Source: a virus. Taken from it: a stretch of 20,008 nucleotides of DNA. This document shows positions 1,326 through 19,143 of the stretch, in pieces. How positions within the stretch are numbered: position 1 is the stretch's first letter; every line of letters begins with the position of its first letter. The position numbers and the translations under genes are program-made. The stretch covers positions 1-20,008 of IMG/VR virus record IMGVR_UViG_3300044940_000559; one strand, written 5' to 3'. The notes beneath the pieces were generated by a model, which saw only the letters and a list, made by a program, of their open reading frames with translations, did not search any database and had not been told where the DNA came from.

Positions 1326-1800
1326 GGCGGCAGAGCAATAGCGGGCTTCCTTCCGTCGAGTTTTCGCGGCAAGGCATGGCACATGGAGACGAGGCCTTTC
1401 TACCCGGGACTCGTCTCCCCTCGCTCTCGCCGAGGTTCGCGTGCTGATCCGCCCACTCCACCGGGAAGGGCTCCATCAGCCCCGGCAGCGTCATCCCCTC
1501 GGGCTGCCGCCCATCCAGGATCGCCTCGACGATGTCGGGCGCGAGCAGCGCCAGCCGCAGGATGCGGCAGAGGTAGGAGCGGTTGATCTTCTCCGCCACC
1601 GCGAGCTCGGTGAGCGTCGCGAAGCGGCCCTCCTCCAGCATCCGCCGCCAGCGGAACGCGCGGGCCACGGCCTTGATGAGCGTGATGTCCTGGCGGGGCT
1701 CCAGCGCCAGCACGCCGGGTGTGACCATCGCCTTCCGCCCGCCCCGCGGCTTCACCCGGAGCGGGATGACGACCGTGAGGGTCTGCGGGGCATGACTCAT
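1264..1800 (-). CDS. ParB/KorB-type helix-turn-helix accessory protein of the serine recombinase cassette
   Basis: The ATG at 1800-1798 overlaps the recombinase stop in an ATGA junction, so translation is probably coupled. The product is 178 aa. Residues 60-85 (LTELAVAEKINRSYLCRILR) form a helix-turn-helix of the ParB/KorB type, with the characteristic SY-x-x-R-I-L-R recognition helix. The part up to about residue 123 (PFPVEWADQ) matches what I know of small proteins encoded directly behind DUF2924/recombinase pairs in Alphaproteobacteria. Those proteins usually end shortly after this point. Here the frame continues about 55 residues through an inverted repeat (1385-1418) and a terminator-like hairpin, so the tail (residues 124-178) is suspect. 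A single-base slip near residue 133 would give an immediate TAG. The likely role is DNA binding that assists or controls recombination, which is inference. Confidence 0.7.
   Translation of the reverse strand: MSHAPQTLTVVIPLRVKPRGGRKAMVTPGVLALEPRQDITLIKAVARAFRWRRMLEEGRFATLTELAVAEKINRSYLCRILRLALLAPDIVEAILDGRQPEGMTLPGLMEPFPVEWADQHANLGESEGRRVPGRKASSPCAMPCRENSTEGSPLLLCRPTNGFPGAESPAMGLFGEAT
1280..1299 (-). terminator. Rho-independent terminator-like hairpin closing the recombinase operon
   Basis: Read on the minus strand, a 6-bp stem AGCCCC/GGGGCT with a 5-base loop is followed by TTTTC. It sits about 15 bases before the formal stop of the HTH ORF, inside its unconserved tail. This supports the true end of that gene lying upstream. 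The T-run is short, so strength is uncertain. Confidence 0.5.
1385..1418. repeat. 9-bp inverted repeat with CCCGGG in the spacer
   Basis: GGAGACGAG (1385-1393) and CTCGTCTCC (1410-1418) are perfect inverted arms separated by 16 bases containing CCCGGG. The repeat lies at the point where the conserved part of the HTH protein ends. It could be a hairpin in the operon mRNA, a binding site, or part of a recombinase attachment site. None of these can be decided from this window. Confidence 0.55.
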
Positions 1801-3149
1801 GCGGCCGCCCTCCCTGCGTCGCCAGACTTCGCGGCCAGGTGGCGCACCAGGCTGCCGAGCCCGTCCAGCCGCAGCCGCACCGCGGCGCCCTCGGCGCGGA
1901 CATCGACCCGGTCCACGAGCAACCGCACGATGCGCGCTCTCTCTGCTGGGAAGAGCTCGTCCCACAGCGGCTCGATCCGATCCAGCGCCAGCAGCACCTC
2001 CTGCTCCGTCACATCGGTCGCCGTGGCGCGCGCCGCCCGCCAGGTGCCGACCACCATCTCGGGCTGGCGCAGCAGCGCGTGCACCTGGGCGACGACCGCT
2101 GCCTCGATCTCGCCGGCCGGCAGACGCGCGATCGCCGGTCGCTCCGCTGTGCCGCCCTTCAGCACCACCTGGCTCACGTAGTAGCGGTACATCCGCCCGC
2201 CCCGGCCGCGACTGTGGCTCGGCGACATAGCGCGTCCGTCACTGTCGAAGATCAGCCCGCGGAGCAGCGGCGCGGTGGTGTTCCGCGTCCGGTTGACCCG
2301 CACCCGCGGGCTGACCTGCAGGATGGCGTGTACCGCGTCCCACTGCGCCTGGGTGACGATGGCCTCGTGCTCACCTGGGTAGGCCGTGCCCTTGTGCACG
2401 GCCTCGCCGAGATACACGCGGTTGCTGAGGATGCGATAGACGTCGCTCTTGGTCAGCGGGCGGCCCCGCTTCGTGGTGGCGCCTTCGGCGCGCAGGGTCT
2501 GCACCAGCTTGGTGCAGGACTCCGTCTCGACGAAGCCCTGGAAGATGCGCCGCACCAGCGCGGCCTCGGCGTCGTTGATCACCAGCTTGCGGTCGCGCAC
2601 GTCGTAGCCGAGCGGCACGAAGCCCCCCATCCACATCCCGCGCTTGCGCGAGGCGGCGAACTTGTCGCGGATGCGCTCGCCGATCACCTCGCGCTCGAAC
2701 TGCGCAAAGCTGAGCAGGATGTTCAGCGTCAGCCTGCCCATGCTCGTCGTCGTGTTGAACGACTGCGTGACCGAGACGAAGGTCACCTCGTTCGCGTCGA
2801 ACACCTCGACCAGCTTGCTGAAGTCCAGGAGAGAGCGGCTGAGGCGGTCAATTTTGTAGACGACCACGACGTCGACCAGCCCCTCCTGGATGTCGGCGAT
2901 GAGACGCTTGAGCGCGGGGCGTTCCAGCGTGCCGCCGGAGATCCCGCCGTCGTCGTAGCGGTCGCGCACCAGCGCCCAACCTTCGGAGCGCTGCGAGGCG
3001 ACATAGGCCTCGCAGGCCTCGCGCTGCGCATCGAGCGAGTTGAACTCCATGTCGAGGCCTTCCTCGCTCGACTTCCTCGTGTAGATCGCACAGCGCAGCT
3101 TGCGAACGGTCGCCGCCATCATGCCGGCCGGGGGCGTGCCGCGCTTCAT
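1797..3149 (-). CDS. Large serine recombinase (site-specific integrase/resolvase)
   Basis: The 450-aa protein has an N-terminal resolvase domain (about 19-165). Its catalytic Tyr-x-Arg-x-Ser motif is at 23-27 (YTRKS, Ser27 the nucleophile), followed by NSLDAQREAC (37-46) and the YKIDRLSRSL segment (98-107) that carries active-site arginines. A recombinase domain follows (about 175-290: LGYDVRDRKLVIND, KSDVYRILSNRVYLGE). The C-terminal region GLIFDSDGRAMSPSHSRG replaces the usual zinc ribbon and has no cysteines. Enzymes of this family cut both attachment sites through a phosphoserine link and rejoin them after subunit rotation, so this is the probable integrase of the element. ATG at 3149 overlaps the upstream DUF2924 stop (ATGA); Met11 is an alternative start. 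It is the third gene of a four-gene coupled operon. Confidence 0.93.
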   Translation of the reverse strand: MKRGTPPAGMMAATVRKLRCAIYTRKSSEEGLDMEFNSLDAQREACEAYVASQRSEGWALVRDRYDDGGISGGTLERPALKRLIADIQEGLVDVVVVYKIDRLSRSLLDFSKLVEVFDANEVTFVSVTQSFNTTTSMGRLTLNILLSFAQFEREVIGERIRDKFAASRKRGMWMGGFVPLGYDVRDRKLVINDAEAALVRRIFQGFVETESCTKLVQTLRAEGATTKRGRPLTKSDVYRILSNRVYLGEAVHKGTAYPGEHEAIVTQAQWDAVHAILQVSPRVRVNRTRNTTAPLLRGLIFDSDGRAMSPSHSRGRGGRMYRYYVSQVVLKGGTAERPAIARLPAGEIEAAVVAQVHALLRQPEMVVGTWRAARATATDVTEQEVLLALDRIEPLWDELFPAERARIVRLLVDRVDVRAEGAAVRLRLDGLGSLVRHLAAKSGDAGRAAA

Positions 3150-3646
3150 GCCGCGCTCCGGCTCGGACGCAGCCCGAAGAAGGCACGCCCGTTCCAGCGG
3201 GTGCCGGTGATGGCGCGGGCGATGGCCGACAGCGACTGGTAGGGGCGCCCCTGGTACTCGTAGCCAGCGCGCGTGACGGTGACGACGTGCTCGACGCCCT
3301 GGTACTCGCGGATCAGCTGCGTGCCGGCGATCGGCCGGTCATCCCCGCGCATCCGCCGCACGGTGACCCTGCCGCCATCGAACTGCTCGCCGAGGGCCTC
3401 GAGGCGCGCGATCGTCTCGGGCTTTAGGCCGCCATACGCAAGTTCCTGGATGCGATACGCCAGGCGGCTTTCCAGGAAGCGACGGTTGTAGGGCGGCGGT
3501 TCGGTGCCGAAGAGCGCGCGCCACTGCTGCTTCAGCTCAGGCGTCGCCGTCGTCTTCAGCGCCGCGAGCCGACCCAGCACGTCGGCGGGCGGGATGGCGG
3601 GGGCGGTGAACGTCGGCGTAGCGGCTGTCTTCTTCTTCCTCGTCAT
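3146..3646 (-). CDS. DUF2924 domain protein
   Basis: The 166-aa protein carries features I associate with DUF2924: the N-terminal LKQQWRALFGTEPPPYNRRF segment (about 39-58), then ESRLAYRIQELAYGG, and a C-terminal half with GTQLIREYQGVEHVVTV and YEYQGRPYQSLSAIARAITG leading to WNGRAFFGL. The C-terminal half resembles small beta-rich DNA-associated domains in which a YxGxxYxSLSAIA motif recurs. The N-terminus is Lys-rich (TRKKK). The GGAGAGGGAG stretch just upstream supports the ATG at 3646. Its stop overlaps the recombinase start by ATGA, and its start overlaps the stop of the 68-aa gene in the same way. The family is regularly found beside serine recombinases, but its biochemical role is unknown to me; a recombination accessory role is inferred. 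Confidence 0.85.
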   Translation of the reverse strand: MTRKKKTAATPTFTAPAIPPADVLGRLAALKTTATPELKQQWRALFGTEPPPYNRRFLESRLAYRIQELAYGGLKPETIARLEALGEQFDGGRVTVRRMRGDDRPIAGTQLIREYQGVEHVVTVTRAGYEYQGRPYQSLSAIARAITGTRWNGRAFFGLRPSRSAA

Positions 3647-3953: not shown

Positions 3954-6188
3954 TCAGCCCGACGCGGCGAGATCCCGCTGCGCCTGCGGCGCCCGCAGGC
4001 GGACCTTCTCCCGCAGCCAGATCGCAAGCCTCGACCAGCGACGTCGCATGCCGGTTCCGCGAACCGCGATCGCGATGGCCCTGCGCTGCCCGACCAGGAC
4101 GACGAGTCGCTTGCCGCGCGTCACGCCCGTGTAGAGCAGGTTCCGCTGCAGCATCGGGTAATGCTGCGTGACCACGGGGATGACCACGGCCGGATACTCC
4201 GAGCCCTGGCTTTTGTGGATGGTGGTTGCGAAGGCCGGCATCAGAGTATCGAGCTCGCCGAAGCCGTAGCGCACCTCGCGATCGTCGAAGCGCACCACGA
4301 GCTCGCCCATCTCCTCGTCGATCGCCACGACCTGGCCAAGATCGCCGTTGTGCACCTCCTTCTCGTAGTCGTTGTCGAGCTGCATCACCCGGTCGCCCGG
4401 CGCGAAGCGCCAGCCGAAGCGCTCGACTGCGACAGGTGGGTTTGGGTTCAGTGCCGCCTGCAGCGCGAGGTTGAGCGCGCGAACGCCGGCCGCACCGCGC
4501 GTCATCGGGCAAAGCACCTGAATGTCGCGGAGGGGATCGAAGCCGAAGCGCTCGGGGATGCGCTTGCTGACCAGCGTGACGATGCGTTCGGCGACCGTCT
4601 CAGGGTCATCGGCAGGGACGACGTGGAAGTCACTCTCCTCGCCACGCGGGGCCGTCTGAGGCAGCTCGCCGCGGTTGATCGCATGCGCGGCCTGGACGAT
4701 GCGGCTCGCCGCAGCCTGGCGGAACACCTCCGTCAGGCGCACGACCGGGAGGGTGCCGGACGAGATGAGGTCCGCGAGCACCTGGCCGGGTCCTACCGAC
4801 GGCAGCTGATCGACATCGCCAACGAACAGCACCGCCGCGCGATCGGACACGGCGCGCAGGAGCGCATACATCAGCGGCACGTCGACCATCGAGGTCTCGT
4901 CAATCACGACGAGGTCTGCTTCGAGCGGGTGCTCGATCCCGCGGCGGAAGCCGCCCGAGACCGGATTGACCTCGAGCAGCCGGTGGATGGTCTTCGCCTC
5001 CATCCCGCTCGCTTCGCTCAGCCGCTTCGCTGCCCGTCCGGTCGGTGCGCACAGCGCGATAGTCGCGCCCTTGGCGGCAAGGACGCGCAGGATGGCGTTC
5101 ACGATTGTCGTCTTACCCACGCCAGGGCCACCGGTGATGACGAGGATCTTGCTGGCGAGCGCTGCCGCGACCGCCGCGCGCTGGCTGTCGGCAAGCGTGA
5201 TGCCGATCCGCTGCTCGACCCAGGGGATCGCCTTCGCGGGATTGATCGCAGGCCACGGTGTTGGGGCGGCGGTGATCGCGGCGAGACGCTCGGCGATTCC
5301 CTGCTCAGCACGATACAACCCAGCGAGGAAGATCACGCGCCGCTCGTCGACGTCTGCAGCGATCACCGAGCCGTCCGCCAGCTCAAGGTCCAGGGCGGTG
5401 CGCACGAGCGCCTCGGGCGCTTCAAGCAGCCGCTCGGCGAGCGGCACCAACTCCTCTTCGGGCAGCCCGCAATGCCCCTCGTCCATCGCTTCCCCGAGAG
5501 CGTGCGCGATGCCGGCGCGGAGGCGAATCAGCGCGGTCTTCTCGATGCCGAGGCGCATCGCAATCGCATCAGCGGTCTTGAAGCCAATGCCGCGGATATC
5601 CCGGGCGAGGCGATAGGGGTTCTCGCTCATCACCCGAATCGACTCGGCACCATAGGTCTTGAAGATGCGCACCGCGCGCGCAGTGCTGACCCCGTGGCTG
5701 TGCAGGAAGACCATAATCTCCCGCACGACCTTCTGCTCGGCCCACGCGGCCTGGATGCGCTCCGCGCGCATCGGCCCGATGCCTGGAACCTCGCGCAGCC
5801 GCTCGGAGGCGTTCTCGATCACGTCAAACACATCGGTGCCGAACGCCTTCACCAGCCGTTTGGCGAAGCCAGGCCCGATACCTCGGATCAGGCCCGAGGC
5901 GAGGTACTTCTCGATCCCCTCGGCGGTCGTGGGCGCAGAGGCACGGAGGAATCGGGCGCGGAACTGCGGGCCATGGGTTCGGTCGTTCACCCACTCGCCG
6001 GTGGCGATGATCCACTCTCCAGGCGAGATGCTGGCGGCATGGCCGACGACCGTCTGGAGGTCGCGTCGGCCGCGCACCTTGACCCGCAACACGCAGAAGC
6101 CGGTTTCGGCGTTGTGGAAGGTCACGCGCTCGATCAGCCCGGACAGCGTCTCGGTGGTGGCGGCGGCGGCGGTCGTGACCGCAGTCAT
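3954..6188 (-). CDS. recD2: RecD2/TraA-type SF1B DNA helicase
   Basis: The 744-aa protein has the RecD2 architecture. An N-terminal OB-like region (10-85: FHNAETGFCVLRVKVRG, ASISPGEWIIATGEWVND) is followed by helix-hairpin-helix repeats (RGIGPGFAKRLV near 102, VPGIGPMRAERI near 134, IRGIGFKTADAIA near 198). The SF1 core has Walker A GGPGVGKT (353-360), APTGRAAKRL (381-390), Walker B VVIDETSMVD (427-436), GDVDQLPSVG (457-466) and C-terminal TTIHKSQGSEYP. RecD2 enzymes are 5'-3' helicases without RecBC; length is normal. ATG 6188 is chosen because it follows GAGG and begins the conserved domain. The longer upstream frame is Arg/Thr-rich shadow. It is encoded on the repressor strand of a phage-like element, so it is probably accessory rather than the host housekeeping copy. 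Confidence 0.9.
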   Translation of the reverse strand: MTAVTTAAAATTETLSGLIERVTFHNAETGFCVLRVKVRGRRDLQTVVGHAASISPGEWIIATGEWVNDRTHGPQFRARFLRASAPTTAEGIEKYLASGLIRGIGPGFAKRLVKAFGTDVFDVIENASERLREVPGIGPMRAERIQAAWAEQKVVREIMVFLHSHGVSTARAVRIFKTYGAESIRVMSENPYRLARDIRGIGFKTADAIAMRLGIEKTALIRLRAGIAHALGEAMDEGHCGLPEEELVPLAERLLEAPEALVRTALDLELADGSVIAADVDERRVIFLAGLYRAEQGIAERLAAITAAPTPWPAINPAKAIPWVEQRIGITLADSQRAAVAAALASKILVITGGPGVGKTTIVNAILRVLAAKGATIALCAPTGRAAKRLSEASGMEAKTIHRLLEVNPVSGGFRRGIEHPLEADLVVIDETSMVDVPLMYALLRAVSDRAAVLFVGDVDQLPSVGPGQVLADLISSGTLPVVRLTEVFRQAAASRIVQAAHAINRGELPQTAPRGEESDFHVVPADDPETVAERIVTLVSKRIPERFGFDPLRDIQVLCPMTRGAAGVRALNLALQAALNPNPPVAVERFGWRFAPGDRVMQLDNDYEKEVHNGDLGQVVAIDEEMGELVVRFDDREVRYGFGELDTLMPAFATTIHKSQGSEYPAVVIPVVTQHYPMLQRNLLYTGVTRGKRLVVLVGQRRAIAIAVRGTGMRRRWSRLAIWLREKVRLRAPQAQRDLAASG

Positions 6189-6342
6189 GGATCCTCGCGA
6201 CCCGCAGGAACGGATGAGCGCATGCGCCCGCACAGCTTCACCGTGTCGGAACACGCTGATCGGCCAGCAACGGGACTGACGGACGCCGGGGCCATGCCGG
6301 ATGGTAGAACGGGTACGCGTCGATTCGTCAGTCCGCGTGCGC

Positions 6343-6570
6343 TCAGCCGCGGAGGTCAGGAAAGATCGCCTTGCAGCGTTCCGTCGCGAAGGGAGCGTTG
6401 CGCGGGCATCCATCGGTGATCGCGCAAAGCACATCCGGCATCGCGGCGTCCTCTCCGAAGCGGCGCATCGGGTTGCCGCGCTGGTACCGCCCCTCGCGAC
6501 CACAGGGCACGCAGCGGACGAGCACGGTGTCGAAGGGGTAGGTCCCGACCGTCAGTGCGCCACGGCTCAT
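6343..6570 (-). CDS. Small cysteine-rich, probable zinc-binding protein (75 aa)
   Basis: The frame starts at ATG 6570 behind GGGAGG and encodes 75 residues. Cysteines occur as C-x-x-C (VRCVPCGR, about 20-23), then DVLCAITDGC and ERCKAIF, an arrangement typical of a small zinc-binding fold. The N-terminus reads MSRGALTVGTYPFDTVLV and the middle contains NPMRRFGEDAAMPDVL. Similar proteins are common and uncharacterised in alphaproteobacterial genomes, as far as I recall. It begins 17 bp after the nuclease gene upstream and is followed by 154 bp before the helicase, so it is probably co-transcribed with the nuclease. A role as adaptor or DNA/RNA-binding protein is conceivable but unproven. Confidence 0.7.
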   Translation of the reverse strand: MSRGALTVGTYPFDTVLVRCVPCGREGRYQRGNPMRRFGEDAAMPDVLCAITDGCPRNAPFATERCKAIFPDLRG

Positions 6571-7968: not shown

Positions 7969-8715
7969 CTACAGCTTCTTCGCAGCCCAAATGACGCGGC
8001 CAATGATGTTGACCTCGTCGGCGTGGCGCTCATAGGTCGGGTAGTCTGGATTGATTGACCGGATCACAACGGTGGTCGGTTCCGAGCTCGGCACGTGCTC
8101 CACGCGCTTGGCCACGACCCCCATGCCGTCCCAGATCACAAAGACGCCCGGCGGCACGGGAACGCGCTGGCTGACGTCGACGAGGATGCGGTCGCCAGAC
8201 GAGAGCAGCGGCTCCATCGAGTCGCCATCGATGGTGATCACGCGCAGATCCCCAGGCCGTGCACGAAGCTCATGCCGCAACATCTCCTCCGGGAACACCC
8301 AGGTTCTCGCAACCGCCTCGAGCCCTTCGTTCAGCGCACCAGGCCCCGCAGACGCACGCACGTCGATCTCGGGCACGGAGGCGAACCCCACAGGCACTTC
8401 GATCCGCTTCTCCCATAGGCGCTCCACGATCGGTTGCTTGCTCGTCTTCGGAGGAGGCTGCCCGCGTTTGTCTGGCGACGCGAGGGGTCGCTTCAGCGTC
8501 CGCGTCACAGGATGACGTAGATCGTCTGGACCGACACCGAGCAGTGCGCCGAGACTCTCCCGCACATCCTCGGGCAGCACCTTGGGCGTGCCGCGATAGA
8601 GAAACTGGTGGAGATAGGCCGGGTTTTTGCCGATCGCGAGCGAGGCGTTCTTCAGGTCGGTCTTGTTCAGCTGGATCAGCTTCATCAGTCGTAGGCGGAT
8701 TGGGTCGAGGTCCAT
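7969..8715 (-). CDS. CI/LexA-like phage repressor with S24 peptidase domain
   Basis: The 248-aa protein has an N-terminal helix-turn-helix region (about 10-60: NKTDLKNASLAIGKNPAYLH), a Pro/Lys-rich linker (about 75-100) and a C-terminal S24 domain. The presumed self-cleavage site is Ala123-Gly124 in VRASAGPGA. The catalytic Ser is 166 (IDGDSMEPLLSSGD) and the Lys is 203 (GVVAKRVEH). Such repressors hold the lysogenic state and cleave themselves when RecA is activated by DNA damage, so induction by the SOS response is expected. ATG 8715 is preferred because an upstream extension would run through the presumed operators. The gene is divergent from the Cro-like gene and is the first of the minus-strand lysogeny genes. 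Confidence 0.92.
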   Translation of the reverse strand: MDLDPIRLRLMKLIQLNKTDLKNASLAIGKNPAYLHQFLYRGTPKVLPEDVRESLGALLGVGPDDLRHPVTRTLKRPLASPDKRGQPPPKTSKQPIVERLWEKRIEVPVGFASVPEIDVRASAGPGALNEGLEAVARTWVFPEEMLRHELRARPGDLRVITIDGDSMEPLLSSGDRILVDVSQRVPVPPGVFVIWDGMGVVAKRVEHVPSSEPTTVVIRSINPDYPTYERHADEVNIIGRVIWAAKKL

Positions 8716-8805
8716 GGCCGGCAACGCCTTGATCTGTCGAGATAGGGGATAGCCTATTTTTACTGTTTGACCGATCGCCGCGTCCAGCATTTCCTATCGC
8801 CCAAC
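8716..8805. promoter_or_regulatory. Divergent promoter/operator region between repressor and Cro-like gene
   Basis: This 90-bp gap holds repeated GATAG/CTATC half-sites: GATAG at 8741-8745 and 8748-8752, the palindrome ATAGCCTAT at 8749-8757, and CCTATC at 8793-8798 just before the Cro-like start. The local AT-rich run (8755-8770) also contains TTGACC (8767-8772), a possible plus-strand -35 box, but no convincing -10 hexamer fits. Such arrays between divergent CI and Cro genes normally bind both regulators. Assignment of individual operators is inference. Confidence 0.55.
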
Positions 8806-14926: not shown

Positions 14927-15693
14927 TGCTGGACTTCAACAGCCGCAGCCAGACCGCGCACCACGTCAACGCCGCGATCGACGCGGCCCTCGTCGCGCGC
15001 CATGCCGAGACGCCGCCGCGGCGTTATCTCGGCGGCTCGCGGCTCGGGCACCCTTGCGAGCGCGCCTTGCAGTTCGAGTTCCTGCAGGCGCCGAAGGACG
15101 AGGGTGCCGGCTTCGATGGACGCATCCTTCGCGTCTTCGGCATCGGCCATGCCCTCGAAGACGTCGCGGTCGACTGGCTGCGGGCCGCAGGCTTCGATCT
15201 CTACACCCGCAAGGGCAACCGCCCGGACGCCGAGCAGTTCGGGTTCTCCGTCGCCGGCGGCAGGATCCGCGGCCACGTCGATGGCGTGTTGGCCAGCGGC
15301 CCCTCGATCCCCGGCCTCGCCTTCCCCGCCCTGTGGGAGTGCAAGACGATGAACGCCAAGACCTGGCGGGAGACCGTCGCCAAGGGCGTGGCCATCGCCA
15401 AGCCGGTCTATGCCGCACAGATCGCCATCTACCAGGCCTACATGGACGCATCGATCCCCGGCGTCGCTGACAACCCCACGCTCTTCACGGCGATCAACAA
15501 GGACACGGCCGAGCTGCACCACGAGCTCGTGCCCTTCGATGCCGATCTCGCGCAGCGCATGAGCGATCGCGCCGTGCGCGTGCTGGCGGCCTGCGATGCG
15601 GGCGAGCTTCTGCCGCGCGTCGCCACCTCCCCGGACTTCCACGAGTGCCGCTTCTGCCCGTGGGCGAAGCGCTGCTGGAGCCAGCCGGTGTGA
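14926..15693 (+). CDS. Cas4/AddB-like PD-(D/E)XK exonuclease with four-cysteine Fe-S motif
   Basis: The 255-aa product shows the RecB-family nuclease signature: Asp119 (RGHVDGVL), Glu138-x-Lys140 (LWECKTM) and QxxxY at 165-169 (QIAIY). Cys44 (GHPCERAL) near the N-terminus and Cys241, Cys244, Cys250 (CRFCPWAKRC) at the C-terminus match the split four-cysteine iron-sulfur cluster of Cas4, AddB and Dna2. The enzyme is expected to resect DNA ends and feed the Sak4-like/SSB pair. ATG 14926 is preceded by AAGGAGG and overlaps the previous stop by one base. The stop overlaps the GTG start of the primase gene. No CRISPR array or cas1/cas2 is present, so a phage recombination nuclease is more likely than CRISPR adaptation. 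Confidence 0.9.
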   Translation: MLDFNSRSQTAHHVNAAIDAALVARHAETPPRRYLGGSRLGHPCERALQFEFLQAPKDEGAGFDGRILRVFGIGHALEDVAVDWLRAAGFDLYTRKGNRPDAEQFGFSVAGGRIRGHVDGVLASGPSIPGLAFPALWECKTMNAKTWRETVAKGVAIAKPVYAAQIAIYQAYMDASIPGVADNPTLFTAINKDTAELHHELVPFDADLAQRMSDRAVRVLAACDAGELLPRVATSPDFHECRFCPWAKRCWSQPV

Positions 15694-17960
15694 CCCTCTG
15701 GTCGGACTTCAACGACGCGCCTGGCCTGCCCTGGGAGGACGAGACGCCGGCGCTCAACCTCGGCGCGATCGCGATCTTCCTCGACGTCGTGTTCGGCTAT
15801 TGCGAGGGGATGATCCCCGTCCGCGGCTTCGTCGACCAGGGTCAGGGCCTCGACAGCAAGCCGCACAACAGCTGGATCCCAGCCGACCGCAACGCCTGTG
15901 ATCTGCTCGGCACCTTCGCTGCCTGGGCAGCACGGGACGGCTCCGCCGTCTACGTCATCCCTGGCACTGTCGCCGAGCCCGGTCAGGCCCGCGCGGAGCA
16001 CGTGGTGCAGATGCAGGCCGCGGTGGTCGATCTCGACACCGGCAACGTCGAGGCCAAGCTCGCGCATCTGGTCCAGCATCTCGGCGCACCGACGCTCCTG
16101 GTCGAGAGCGGCGGCCGCACCGCCGACGGAATGCCGAAGCTGCACGCCTGGTGGCGGCTGACCGAGCCGGCCGAGGGGCCCGACCTCGCCCGGCTCTGCG
16201 CGTTGCGCGGCGAGATCGCAGACAAGGTCGGCGGCGACCCGCACTTCCGCTCCGCGCACCAGCCGATCCGCGTCCCAGGCACGCTCTACCGCAAGGGCGG
16301 CGTCGCGCGTGTGGTCGTCATCCGCCAGCACGATCCGTCGCGCGAGGTGGATCTCGCCGAGTTCGCCGACGCCGTCGCCGCCATGCCCTATCTGCCCGGC
16401 CAGGAGCGCCAGCCCGCGCCTTCGGCCGGGGACCGCCCCAGCATCGACACCGTCCTCACCACCCCCGTGCGAGAGGGCGCGCAGGACGGCTGGACGCGCT
16501 TCCAGGGCGCGAGCGCCGCCATCGGGCACTTCATCCGCCAGGTGCATGAGGGACGACTGACGCCGGACCAGGGCTGGGAAGCGATCTGCGGCTACAACGC
16601 CGCCTGCCTGCGCCCGCCGTGGCCGCTCGAGCGGCTCAAGGCCGAAGCGGATGCGCTGTGGGCGCTGCACCTCGACCGCAACGGCCCGCCGCTGCTCCGC
16701 TCCGACCATGCCCCGGCGGTGGTGCCTGCCCACACGCTCGGCGCGCTGCTCGATGACAGGTCGCCGATGCCGGACGATCTGATCGGCCCGCGTGTGCTCA
16801 CCCCGGGTGGCATGCTCGTGCTCGGCGGCGCGCCAAAGGTCGGCAAATCCGACTTCCTGATCAGCCTGCTGGTCCACGCCGCCGCGGGCGTGCCGTTCCT
16901 GCGCTTCACCGCACCACGGCCGCTGCGCGTGTTCTATCTGCAGGCGGAGATCCAGTATCACTACCTCCGCGAGCGGCTGCAGCAGCTGCGCATCGATCCC
17001 GCGGTGCTTCCCCGCGCCCGCGACACACTCGTCGTCACGCCGAAGCTGCGGCTGCTGCTCGACGAGCAAGGCCTCCCCCTGGTCGGGGCCGCGATCCGCC
17101 AGGCCTTCCCCGATGCGCCGCCCGACGTGATCTGCATCGATCCGATCCGCAACGTCTTCGATGGCGGTCCGGGCGGCGAGGGCGAGAACGACAACGCCGC
17201 GATGCTGTTCTTCCTGCAGAGCCGTGTCGAGGCGCTGCGTGATGCCGTCGCCCCGGAGGCCGGCATCATCCTCGCTCACCACACGAAGAAACTCGGCAAG
17301 CACCAGGTGAAGGAGGATCCGTTCCAGTCGCTCTCGGGCGCGAGCGCGCTGCGCGGCTTCTACACCTCCGGCATGCTCCTCTTCCGGCCCGACGAGGAGG
17401 AGACGGCGCGCGAGCTGCATCTCGAGCTGCGCAACGGACCTGCCCTCTCGTCGCTCCTGATCGACAAGCTGGCGGGGCGCTGGGTGGAGCTGAACCGGCG
17501 CGACGAGCGGCTCGTCCGGAAGGACATCGGCCGCAAGCTCGATGCTGAGCGCACCCGCCGCCACGACATTATCCTGCGCCTTATCGCGGAGGAGGCAGTG
17601 GCCGGACGGCTCTGCACCACGAACGCCTTCGCCTCGAAGTTCGAGAACAAGCGCGGCCTCGGTGGCAAGGACACCATCCGCGACAGGATCTCGGTGCTCG
17701 CCACAAAGGGGTACATCAAGTTCCGCCGCGATGCGCAGGACCTTGGAATACCCTACACGAGGTCCAAGCATGGCTATCTCGTCGTGCAGGACATGCTGCT
17801 TGGGAACGGTCAGGAGACCATCGACCCCGAAACCGGCGAGGTCCTGCCCGACGGCGTCCGGGTGCTCCCGAGCCACTACCAGTGCCCCCAGAGCGGCGCA
17901 CTGCTCGAGGTCGAGAACCCCGAGGTCTGGGTGCTGCACGATCCTGAGGAGGCTCCGTGA
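15690..17960 (+). CDS. Primase-polymerase (AEP-like) fused to RepA-like AAA helicase
   Basis: The 756-aa protein starts at GTG 15690 inside the previous stop. The N-terminal half carries archaeo-eukaryotic primase-type motifs: VVDLDTG (Asp114, Asp116), LHAWWRL (His152) and HQPIRVPGTLYRKGG (190-204), as in RepB-like primases. A linker with helical PriCT-like segment (about 275-325) leads to a RecA-fold helicase with Walker A GGAPKVGKS (379-387), FYLQAEIQ (415-422) and Walker B ICIDPIRNVF (481-490), then ILAHHTKK and SLSGASALRG. The C-terminus has a winged-helix-like region (about 620-690). One polypeptide thus could prime and unwind the element's DNA, like RepB'-RepA of mobilisable plasmids. 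A repeat array resembling iterons lies directly downstream. Confidence 0.85.
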   Translation: MTLWSDFNDAPGLPWEDETPALNLGAIAIFLDVVFGYCEGMIPVRGFVDQGQGLDSKPHNSWIPADRNACDLLGTFAAWAARDGSAVYVIPGTVAEPGQARAEHVVQMQAAVVDLDTGNVEAKLAHLVQHLGAPTLLVESGGRTADGMPKLHAWWRLTEPAEGPDLARLCALRGEIADKVGGDPHFRSAHQPIRVPGTLYRKGGVARVVVIRQHDPSREVDLAEFADAVAAMPYLPGQERQPAPSAGDRPSIDTVLTTPVREGAQDGWTRFQGASAAIGHFIRQVHEGRLTPDQGWEAICGYNAACLRPPWPLERLKAEADALWALHLDRNGPPLLRSDHAPAVVPAHTLGALLDDRSPMPDDLIGPRVLTPGGMLVLGGAPKVGKSDFLISLLVHAAAGVPFLRFTAPRPLRVFYLQAEIQYHYLRERLQQLRIDPAVLPRARDTLVVTPKLRLLLDEQGLPLVGAAIRQAFPDAPPDVICIDPIRNVFDGGPGGEGENDNAAMLFFLQSRVEALRDAVAPEAGIILAHHTKKLGKHQVKEDPFQSLSGASALRGFYTSGMLLFRPDEEETARELHLELRNGPALSSLLIDKLAGRWVELNRRDERLVRKDIGRKLDAERTRRHDIILRLIAEEAVAGRLCTTNAFASKFENKRGLGGKDTIRDRISVLATKGYIKFRRDAQDLGIPYTRSKHGYLVVQDMLLGNGQETIDPETGEVLPDGVRVLPSHYQCPQSGALLEVENPEVWVLHDPEEAP

Positions 17961-17985
17961 TGCTTCCCTGCGATACGGCAGCGTT

Positions 17986-18179
17986 CCGAAACTGCTCCCG
18001 AAACTGCACAGTTTCGGACCGAAACTGCTCCCCCGCCGAAACTGCCAAACTTGTTTTTCCCAATCGCGTCAACGGCTTACAGACGAAAGCAGTTTCGCGT
18101 AACGAATCTGCCGAAACTGCTCTCAAAACTGCTTTTTCCCTCTTTCTATCAATGGGTTGGAGCAGTTTGGCAGTTTCGG
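17986..18179. repeat. Iteron-like array of CCGAAACTGC repeats in both orientations
   Basis: Exact direct copies of CCGAAACTGC begin at 17986, 17998, 18019, 18036 and 18111, and one exact inverted copy is at 18170-18179. Near copies are the inverted CAGTTTCGG at 18009-18017, GCAGTTTCGC at 18089-18098 and GCAGTTTGG at 18162-18170, plus the direct CAAAACTGC at 18124-18132. Copies at 17998 and 18009 form a perfect 9-bp inverted repeat with a CA spacer. Spacing is irregular (10-60 bp), so this is not a CRISPR array. Confidence 0.85.
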
Positions 18180-18187
18180 TTTTTCGT

Positions 18188-18206
18188 CACCCCCCTACGG
18201 GGGGTG
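18188..18206. repeat. 8-bp stem-loop CACCCCCC/GGGGGGTG
   Basis: CACCCCCC (18188-18195) and GGGGGGTG (18199-18206) form a perfect stem with a TAC loop. On the minus strand the stem is followed by A-rich, not T-rich, sequence; on the plus strand it runs into the next hairpin. It is therefore not a standard terminator in either direction, although a T-run precedes it on the plus strand. Confidence 0.7.
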
Positions 18207-18236
18207 TGCGTGCGCGCCTCAAAGGCGCGCGCACAC
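18204..18236. repeat. 13-bp GC-rich hairpin with TCAAA loop
   Basis: GTGTGCGTGCGCGCC (18204-18218) pairs with GGCGCGCGCACAC (18224-18236) with a 2-base bulge and a 5-base loop. It abuts the preceding stem-loop and is mutually exclusive with its right end by three bases. It could be a priming structure of the origin, or a terminator/attenuator without T-run. Confidence 0.7.
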
Positions 18237-18376
18237 CACACCTCCCGAGGACGAGGCGTGGGCGCGATCCGCCCCGACAGCCCCCCCACCGCTGCATGCC
18301 GGGCAGCGACGGTGAGCTCCGCCAAGAACCGCACCGTCGCCGCCCTCACCACGACGATCCCCTCTCGGAGGCCATC

Positions 18377-18922
18377 ATGGCTCTCGCGACTCTGACCGCG
18401 CCCGCGCCGCTGGCAAGCGGCGACGGCACCATCCCGGTGCACGCCGCACTCGCCCACCGCTCCGTCCTCGCCCTCGACCTCGGCACCATCACCGGCTGGG
18501 CGATCCGCTTCCACGATGGCGTCATCACCTCGGGCACGATGCGCTTCACCCCCAGCCGCTTCGAAGGCGGCGGCATGCGCTACCTGCGCTTCCGACACTG
18601 GCTCGGCGACGTCGCCCGGCTCGCTGGTGGCCTCGAGCGCATCGTGTTCGAGGAGGTGCGTCGCCACGCCGGCACAGATGCCGCGCACATCTACGGCGGC
18701 TTCCTCGCTCACCTCGCCGCATGGGCCGACGAGCGTCGCATCGCCTACGAGGGCGTGCCCGTTGGCACGATCAAGCGCTTCGCGACCGGCCGCGGCAACG
18801 CCGACAAGATGGCGATGATCGCGGCGATGCAAGCCCGCGGCTTCACCCCCGCCGACGACAACGAGGCCGATGCCATCGCGCTGCTGCTGTGGGCCACGGA
18901 CGCGCAGGGAGGCCGCGCATGA
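18377..18922 (+). CDS. RuvC-like Holliday junction resolvase / RNase H-fold nuclease
   Basis: ATG 18377 is preceded by CGGAGG at six bases and gives 181 aa. The RNase H-fold acidic residues are visible: Asp34 (LALDLGTITGWAI), Glu92 (RIVFEEVRRH), and Asp161/Asp165 at the C-terminal helix (ADDNEADAIALLLWA). PVGTIKRFATGRGNADKMAM carries the conserved Lys-rich segment of phage RuvC-like enzymes. Such enzymes resolve branched DNA before packaging and would complete the recombination set upstream. The much longer upstream frame crosses the repeat array and is not coding in composition. The stop overlaps the next start by ATGA. Confidence 0.88.
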   Translation: MALATLTAPAPLASGDGTIPVHAALAHRSVLALDLGTITGWAIRFHDGVITSGTMRFTPSRFEGGGMRYLRFRHWLGDVARLAGGLERIVFEEVRRHAGTDAAHIYGGFLAHLAAWADERRIAYEGVPVGTIKRFATGRGNADKMAMIAAMQARGFTPADDNEADAIALLLWATDAQGGRA

Positions 18923-19143
18923 TGCTGCCCGGCTCTCCTATGCAGCCGCGCTCGTCGTTGCATCGCGCGAGCAGCCCAGCCAACGCCCTCGAGCTCGACG
19001 CCCTGCGCCGCCGCGTCTGGCACGAGCAGGGCGTGGTCTCAATCGGCATCGATGACATCACCGATCCATGGCTCCGCCAGTCGCTCATCAACGAAGCCAC
19101 GAAGCGGTGGGGACACCGCATGGGAGGGAACAATGGCCGGTAA
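18919..19143 (+). CDS. Small phage protein after the resolvase (74 aa)
   Basis: The ATG overlaps the resolvase stop (ATGA). The C-terminal two thirds look conserved: LELDALRRRVWHEQGVVSIG followed by IDDITDPWLRQSLINEATKR and WG. I recall such short proteins downstream of RuvC-like genes in alphaproteobacterial prophages, without a known function. The acidic-helix-then-basic-tail layout would suit a partner protein of the resolvase or of DNA. It overlaps the next gene by 11 bp. Confidence 0.7.
   Translation: MMLPGSPMQPRSSLHRASSPANALELDALRRRVWHEQGVVSIGIDDITDPWLRQSLINEATKRWGHRMGGNNGR

Follow-up and report, generated by a model that had tools for sequence, protein, structure and literature searches.

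Where does this virus start the replication of its DNA, and which protein recognizes the starting site? The question arises from an array of short repeats in the 20,008-base virus record IMGVR_UViG_3300044940_000559, which was analysed over its whole length (the window; overall GC approximately 69%). The array begins 26 bp past the stop codon of a gene for a primase-helicase, in non-coding DNA that extends from that stop to the start of a RuvC-like gene (Table 1). A sequence-only reading of the window had described approximately ten copies of a 10-bp unit, five of them exact and direct and one exact and inverted, in AT-richer non-coding DNA. It had proposed that the element replicates from this array and that, in default of a separate RepC-type initiator, the repeats would have to be bound by the primase-helicase or by one of the unknown early proteins.

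All six exact copies of the unit, CCGAAACTGC, were found within 17986-18179, and none elsewhere in the window. When one mismatch was allowed, the window gave 10 matches, of which 8 fell within the array, as compared to 1.5 expected from shuffled sequences (0 of 100 shuffles reached 10). A 9-base core with up to two mismatches placed 11-12 units in the array, showing that the earlier count was right, if slightly low. The description of the array as AT-richer also held, as the lowest-GC 60-base stretch of the window falls inside it; by composition only, eight relatives were similar in this respect, their arrays ranking among the lowest 0.01-0.9%. The locus therefore has the features of an iteron-type origin, namely repeats beside an initiator gene (6 exact, approximately 5 near) and an adjacent A+T-rich element. 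Cumulative GC skew showed no turn at the array in six Acetobacteraceae-type genomes tested, while in two Rhodobacterales-type genomes it turned approximately 0.9 kb and approximately 4 kb from the array, respectively. GC skew was set aside as evidence for the origin, being uninformative in the Acetobacteraceae-type phages.

Table 1. Positions of the iteron array and neighbouring features in the 20,008-base window.
Feature	Position	Strand	Remark
Primase-helicase gene	15645..17960	+	771-residue fused protein; stop at 17960
C-terminal winged-helix domain, proposed iteron reader	17517..17957	+	residues 625-771
Predicted recognition helix (KDTIRDRISVLATK) and wing			C-terminal domain of primase-helicase; helix at approximately residues 675-688, wing at approximately 692-713
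Iteron, exact	17986..17995	+	sequence
Iteron, exact	17998..18007	+	sequence
Iteron, inverted, 1 mismatch	18008..18017	-	one-mismatch scan
Iteron, exact	18019..18028	+	sequence
Iteron, exact	18036..18045	+	sequence
Degenerate IHF-like site (CGTCAACGGCTTA, 2 mismatches)	18067..18079	+	located where relatives have the first IHF site
Iteron, inverted, 1 mismatch	18089..18098	-	one-mismatch scan
Iteron core, 1 mismatch (CGAATCTGC)	18103..18111	+	9-base core placement
Iteron, exact	18111..18120	+	sequence
Iteron core, 1 mismatch	18124..18132	+	9-base core placement
Lowest-GC 60 bases of window, candidate unwinding element	18125..18184		40% GC; composition
Exact IHF consensus WATCAANNNNTTR (TATCAATGGGTTG)	18147..18159	+	sequence; sole exact site in window
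Iteron core, inverted, 1 mismatch	18162..18170	-	9-base core placement
Iteron, exact inverted	18170..18179	-	sequence
Hairpin 1, CACCCCCC-TAC-GGGGGGTG	18188..18206		right border of swapped module
Hairpin 2, GTGCGTGCGCGCCT-CAA-AGGCGCGCGCACAC	18206..18236		partly mutually exclusive with hairpin 1
Hairpin 3	18301..18345	-	14-bp stem (13 pairs modelled); invariant minus-strand loop 5'-CTTGGCGG
RuvC-like Holliday junction resolvase gene	18377..18922	+	next gene after the putative origin; phrog_159, E 2e-23

Pfam and PHROGs searches of this 20-kb record fragment (records of relatives reach 47 kb and more) found integrase, S24 repressor and recombination genes, and the virus seems to be a phage and not a satellite. 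The gene for a large serine recombinase (integrase) occupies 1797-3646 and is preceded by a small minus-strand gene of unknown kind, the two likely forming an integration module. A gene for an S24-peptidase CI-like repressor, on the minus strand at 7969-8790, is divergent from the early replication genes. A long minus-strand ORF next to the integrase gene, at 3954-6503, resembles a RecD-like helicase by eye and could be host DNA or phage cargo.

We compared the locus with 160 relatives encoding the primase-helicase (80 viral contigs and 80 bacterial genome loci), all from alphaproteobacterial phages or prophages. Hosts named in the genome records were mostly Acetobacteraceae (Roseomonas, Falsiroseomonas, Neoroseomonas and others) and Rhodobacterales. 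In the first 80 relatives, the density of GAAACTGC in the 600 bases downstream of the gene was 60 times that elsewhere. The place, spacing and orientation of the array were kept across relatives, while the unit sequence fell into at least seven classes, and many relatives without GAAACTGC carried another unit at the same place: TGCGGAACTT (class B), CCTAACTCCT (C), TGGCAACTG (D), TGGCAGCTT (H), TCCCAAAGT (I), TCCCAACTG (J) or further ones. Classes A, B, C, D, H, I and J have a common geometry, consisting of a cluster of direct and inverted units, an IHF site, inverted and then direct units, a second IHF site and two inverted units. Conservation of the repeats in relatives had been suggested as a check on the original proposal, and their absence as its refutation. 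The array was indeed kept, but its unit was often different, as expected for initiator-specific iterons, so that this refutation test needs amending. In the Rhodobacterales branch the array was shorter or more degenerate, and at 35 of 147 loci no catalogued unit was present in three copies, which we count against the origin reading. Other clusters of CGAAACTGC in the viral collection, found without a primase-helicase gene, were rejected; they were mostly spaced at multiples of 18 bases and are probably coding repeats. In class C, the array lies partly within the coding end of the primase-helicase gene. At four class C loci the last approximately 20 codons of the gene are iteron sequence, and the tail of the protein would therefore be dictated by the origin.

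The sequence WATCAANNNNTTR is the conventional IHF consensus (PMC10380432). Relatives have two copies within the array, 79-82 bp apart; of the two sites in the window, one is exact and the other degenerate. As a sequence consensus only, exact matches numbered 26 in 18.9 kb of array DNA versus 1 in 654 kb elsewhere.

The 771-residue protein encoded beside the array combines an N-terminal AEP primase (approximately residues 40-250), a RecA-like helicase ATPase (Pfam AAA_25, residues 368-551, E 1e-19) and a predicted C-terminal winged helix, and PHROGs primase/helicase families phrog_13004 and phrog_239 were matched by this neighbouring protein. A sequence search of the PDB with the protein found nothing, and NCBIfam yielded no family. 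An AlphaFold2 model of the full protein (pLDDT 70) gave fold matches to S-2L PrimPol (6zp9), to RSF1010 RepB' (3h20, E 3e-7; 3h25, E 1e-6; fold similarity only), to DnaB (2q6t) and to the RSF1010 RepA helicase (1olo/1nlf), in agreement with the AEP-like primase and RepA-like helicase that had been recognized in this gene. When residues 625-771 were modelled alone (pLDDT 84, pTM 0.75), three helices and two strands were followed by a beta module. Helix-helix-helix-strand-strand is the order of a winged helix. Foldseek found no significant PDB match for this domain model, and the probable assignment as a winged helix thus rests on the AlphaFold2 secondary-structure order, that is, on topology.

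Sequence identity along the primase-helicase was compared within and between iteron classes. Identity over residues 1-600 was 0.82 between relatives of the same class and 0.81 between those of different classes, whereas over residues 631-771 it was 0.86 versus 0.57. In 68 dereplicated relatives, same-class and different-class identities were approximately equal for residues 1-585 and split sharply from approximately residue 600; for residues 646-685 they were 0.89 and 0.54, and none of 2000 permutations gave so large a separation, the largest null difference being 0.057. Strong discrimination among classes A, B and C was seen at 59 of 171 C-terminal positions versus 0 of 600 others, and the discriminating positions include 675, 680, 683 and 687 in the recognition helix and 705, 708 and 709 in the wing. 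A label-free partial Mantel correlation over 126 loci was 0.69 (0 of 999 permutations). Class changes numbered at least 32 on a tree of residues 1-600 (the backbone) and 6 on the C-terminal tree, 6 being the minimum for seven classes; the trees were made with FastTree and the figure of 32 is approximate. On the right side of the array, the class signal stopped at hairpin 1. In a census of genomes made with a covariance model of hairpin 3 (see below), some of which overlap the first set of relatives, the type of recognition helix agreed with the iteron class in 16 of 16 classifiable cases. We propose from these sequence comparisons that the C-terminal domain (approximately residues 625-771) is the iteron reader and that iteron units are probably specific to their cognate initiator. 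The suggestion that the primase-helicase is the repeat binder is thereby supported and narrowed to one domain, and no separate RepC-type initiator was recognized in the window by Pfam or PHROGs.

Co-variation of this kind could also arise by linkage, through recombination of adjacent DNA, with another phage or host protein reading the array. The array and the C-terminal domain lie within approximately 600 bp, the swapped block spans approximately residue 600 to hairpin 1, and block recombination alone would co-transfer both. However, the within- versus between-class identity of RuvC, the DEAD helicase, the SSB-like protein, Sak4 and the small upstream protein differed by at most 0.027, small differences which were above chance for most and which we read as background relatedness; no other protein tested tracked the iteron class. 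Furthermore, the sole protein segment exchanged has the winged-helix order, and a single host protein could hardly read at least seven different units in one geometry. Because no clear mismatched pair of domain and array was found in approximately 30 inferred swaps or in the 16 census cases, and no other tested protein tracks the class, we favour the functional reading and consider linkage improbable. Iteron-type sites often double as operators, and the array is located 200 bp upstream of the RuvC-like gene, yet it is very unlikely that it is an operator through which the primase-helicase or another regulator controls that gene or its own transcription while replication starts elsewhere, as a scan of 17900-19000 for sigma-70-like promoters (other promoter types being outside the scan) found none, the array lies 3' of the gene with which it co-varies, three unrelated replication proteins are each accompanied by an array of their own in this position, and the proposed reader domain belongs to a replicative primase-helicase.

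We conclude that the array is very probably where a temperate phage of Acetobacteraceae-like Alphaproteobacteria starts its replication, that the primase-helicase probably reads iterons of its own class through the predicted C-terminal winged helix, and that winged helix and array would make up one exchangeable specificity cartridge. The comparative evidence for replication from the array, as first proposed, consists of its conserved place and geometry, the joint exchange of iteron unit and C-terminal domain, and the enrichment of the IHF consensus. From this we infer a sequence of events that runs from iteron binding through melting to priming and includes IHF. The winged helix would attach the primase-helicase to iterons of its own class. 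IHF, a host protein that bends DNA, would act at two sites approximately 80 bp apart and fold the array, bringing its direct and inverted iterons together. Next to the IHF sites, the A+T-rich stretches would then open, the RecA-like motor of the same protein would unwind the DNA, and its AEP domain would lay primers. Each virus appears to copy only origins in its own iteron code. Several bacterial genomes hold two or three such origins. The idea that co-resident prophages avoid the same iterons was not upheld, as a unit was shared in 1 of 22 within-genome pairs versus 1.5 expected, a comparison with no power; the differing units in 21 of 22 pairs were not significantly different from chance.

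Downstream of the primase-helicase gene, the array is followed by two G+C-rich hairpins, by hairpin 3 and by the RuvC-like gene, in this order. Hairpins 1 and 2 represent alternative pairings within 18188-18247, in which GGGGGGTGTG pairs with the 5' CCCCCC or with CACACCTCCCG, and Rhodobacterales relatives show an equivalent alternative, CCCATAC-GTATGGG-CCCATAC. Neither hairpin had a clear strand preference. The hairpins were also considered as a terminator or a sigma-70 promoter, with no match.

The loop and inner stem of hairpin 3 were approximately 95% identical across iteron classes. Deviations from pairing in a plus-strand fold comprised 42 A.C versus 2 G.U; because a plus-strand A.C becomes a G.U on the minus strand, it is the minus strand that folds, although mutation bias could contribute to this asymmetry. 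In the minus-strand consensus, 98.6% of cells were paired, and the covariation score was 0.40 as compared to at most 0.20 when slid. Neither gathering nor relaxed thresholds gave anything credible in Rfam (sub-threshold miRNA and symR matches were taken as chance), and hairpin 3 has no known counterpart. With a covariance model, every complete phage record tested had a single strong match, in each case directly 3' of the initiator gene, and 46 copies were detected in 28 genomes among 250 genomes of one bacterial family. Of 45 copies read, 18 follow an AEP/RecA-like primase-helicase, approximately 10 a VapE-like helicase (PF05272) and approximately 15 a third, uncharacterized initiator type (phrog_10537), and the co-varying minus-strand fold is common to these three unrelated types. 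The VapE-like and third-type initiators each have their own iteron array, that of the third type within the coding end. At five third-type loci, up to 14 iterons lie wholly inside the 3' coding end of the gene; some groups are inverted and others direct, and they surround an alternating CACATGCGCGCGCGCACATG-like stretch. As hairpin 3 adjoins unrelated initiators with their own iterons, it looks like a constant element, next to which an initiator and its iterons can be exchanged together as a cartridge. We lean towards regarding hairpin 3 as a structural element of phage origins that forms on the minus strand, has not been described before and serves three or more unrelated types of initiator (AEP-RecA-like, VapE-like and the third), each arriving as such a cartridge with its iterons. 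Single-strand priming or the loading of a primosome could take place at this site; alternatively, it could act as an antisense RNA.

Searches of the open-access literature turned up no account of this origin, and several known systems resemble it in part. The lambda O protein itself is neither a helicase nor a primase. Lambda likewise has phage iterons next to an A+T-rich region (PMC7466680). They are inside the O gene, much as iterons lie inside the coding end of the initiator in class C and third-type relatives, but the lambda origin is mid-gene. In PICI/SaPI pri-rep-ori replicons, the origin is immediately 3' of the replication protein gene and iterons form two sets around an A+T-rich region (PMC6092414). 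The present locus is similar in these respects and in having allelic replication proteins with differing iterons (PMC6092414), and differs in its fusion of AEP and RecA-like (AAA_25) domains, two IHF-consensus sites, apparent phage nature and constant minus-strand hairpin. Phage P4 alpha unites primase, helicase and winged-helix binding of repeats in one protein (PMC4234260); its family is marked by a Toprim-type primase and a superfamily 3 helicase, whereas the protein described here has an AEP fold and an AAA_25 RecA-like motor and was not assigned to it. The pRN1 ORF904 protein also joins an AEP domain, a helicase and a C-terminal winged helix, with the origin 3' of the gene, but that origin is a stem-loop without iterons and the helicase is of superfamily 3 (PMC4234260). 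RSF1010/IncQ has an AEP primase of RepB' fold, a helicase of RepA fold and origin iterons, but as three proteins, with RepC reading the iterons (PMC4538821). The RepA/RepB' likeness noted at the outset is sustained for the fold of both domains and not for membership, as separate RepA, RepB' and RepC are replaced by a single fusion, in which the winged helix seems to take the part of RepC. The ssi hairpins of RSF1010/IncQ are recognized by its primase; the present locus has a minus-strand hairpin, hairpin 3, which is found also beside other initiators. In PLE, exchange of a replication module changes initiator and iterons together, as here, and origin-directed nucleases may drive the exchange (PMC8263062, PMC7145576); PLE RepA, however, is of RepA_N type, and exchange has been described among few elements.

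Iteron origins and their initiators have usually been studied one at a time. Among the relatives, seven or more iteron codes occur naturally on one scaffold (more with the other initiator types), and since the matching changes are confined to one small winged-helix domain, the recognition code of the initiator is directly testable by domain and array swaps. The iteron classes could also yield replicons for Alphaproteobacteria that exclude one another. If hairpin 3 has a role of the kind suggested above, it could allow phages to replace their initiator while the remainder of the origin stays as it is. The diversity of iterons raises the question of what drives it; prophages sharing a host may be incompatible, or new iterons may permit escape from origin-directed nucleases such as those described for PLE.
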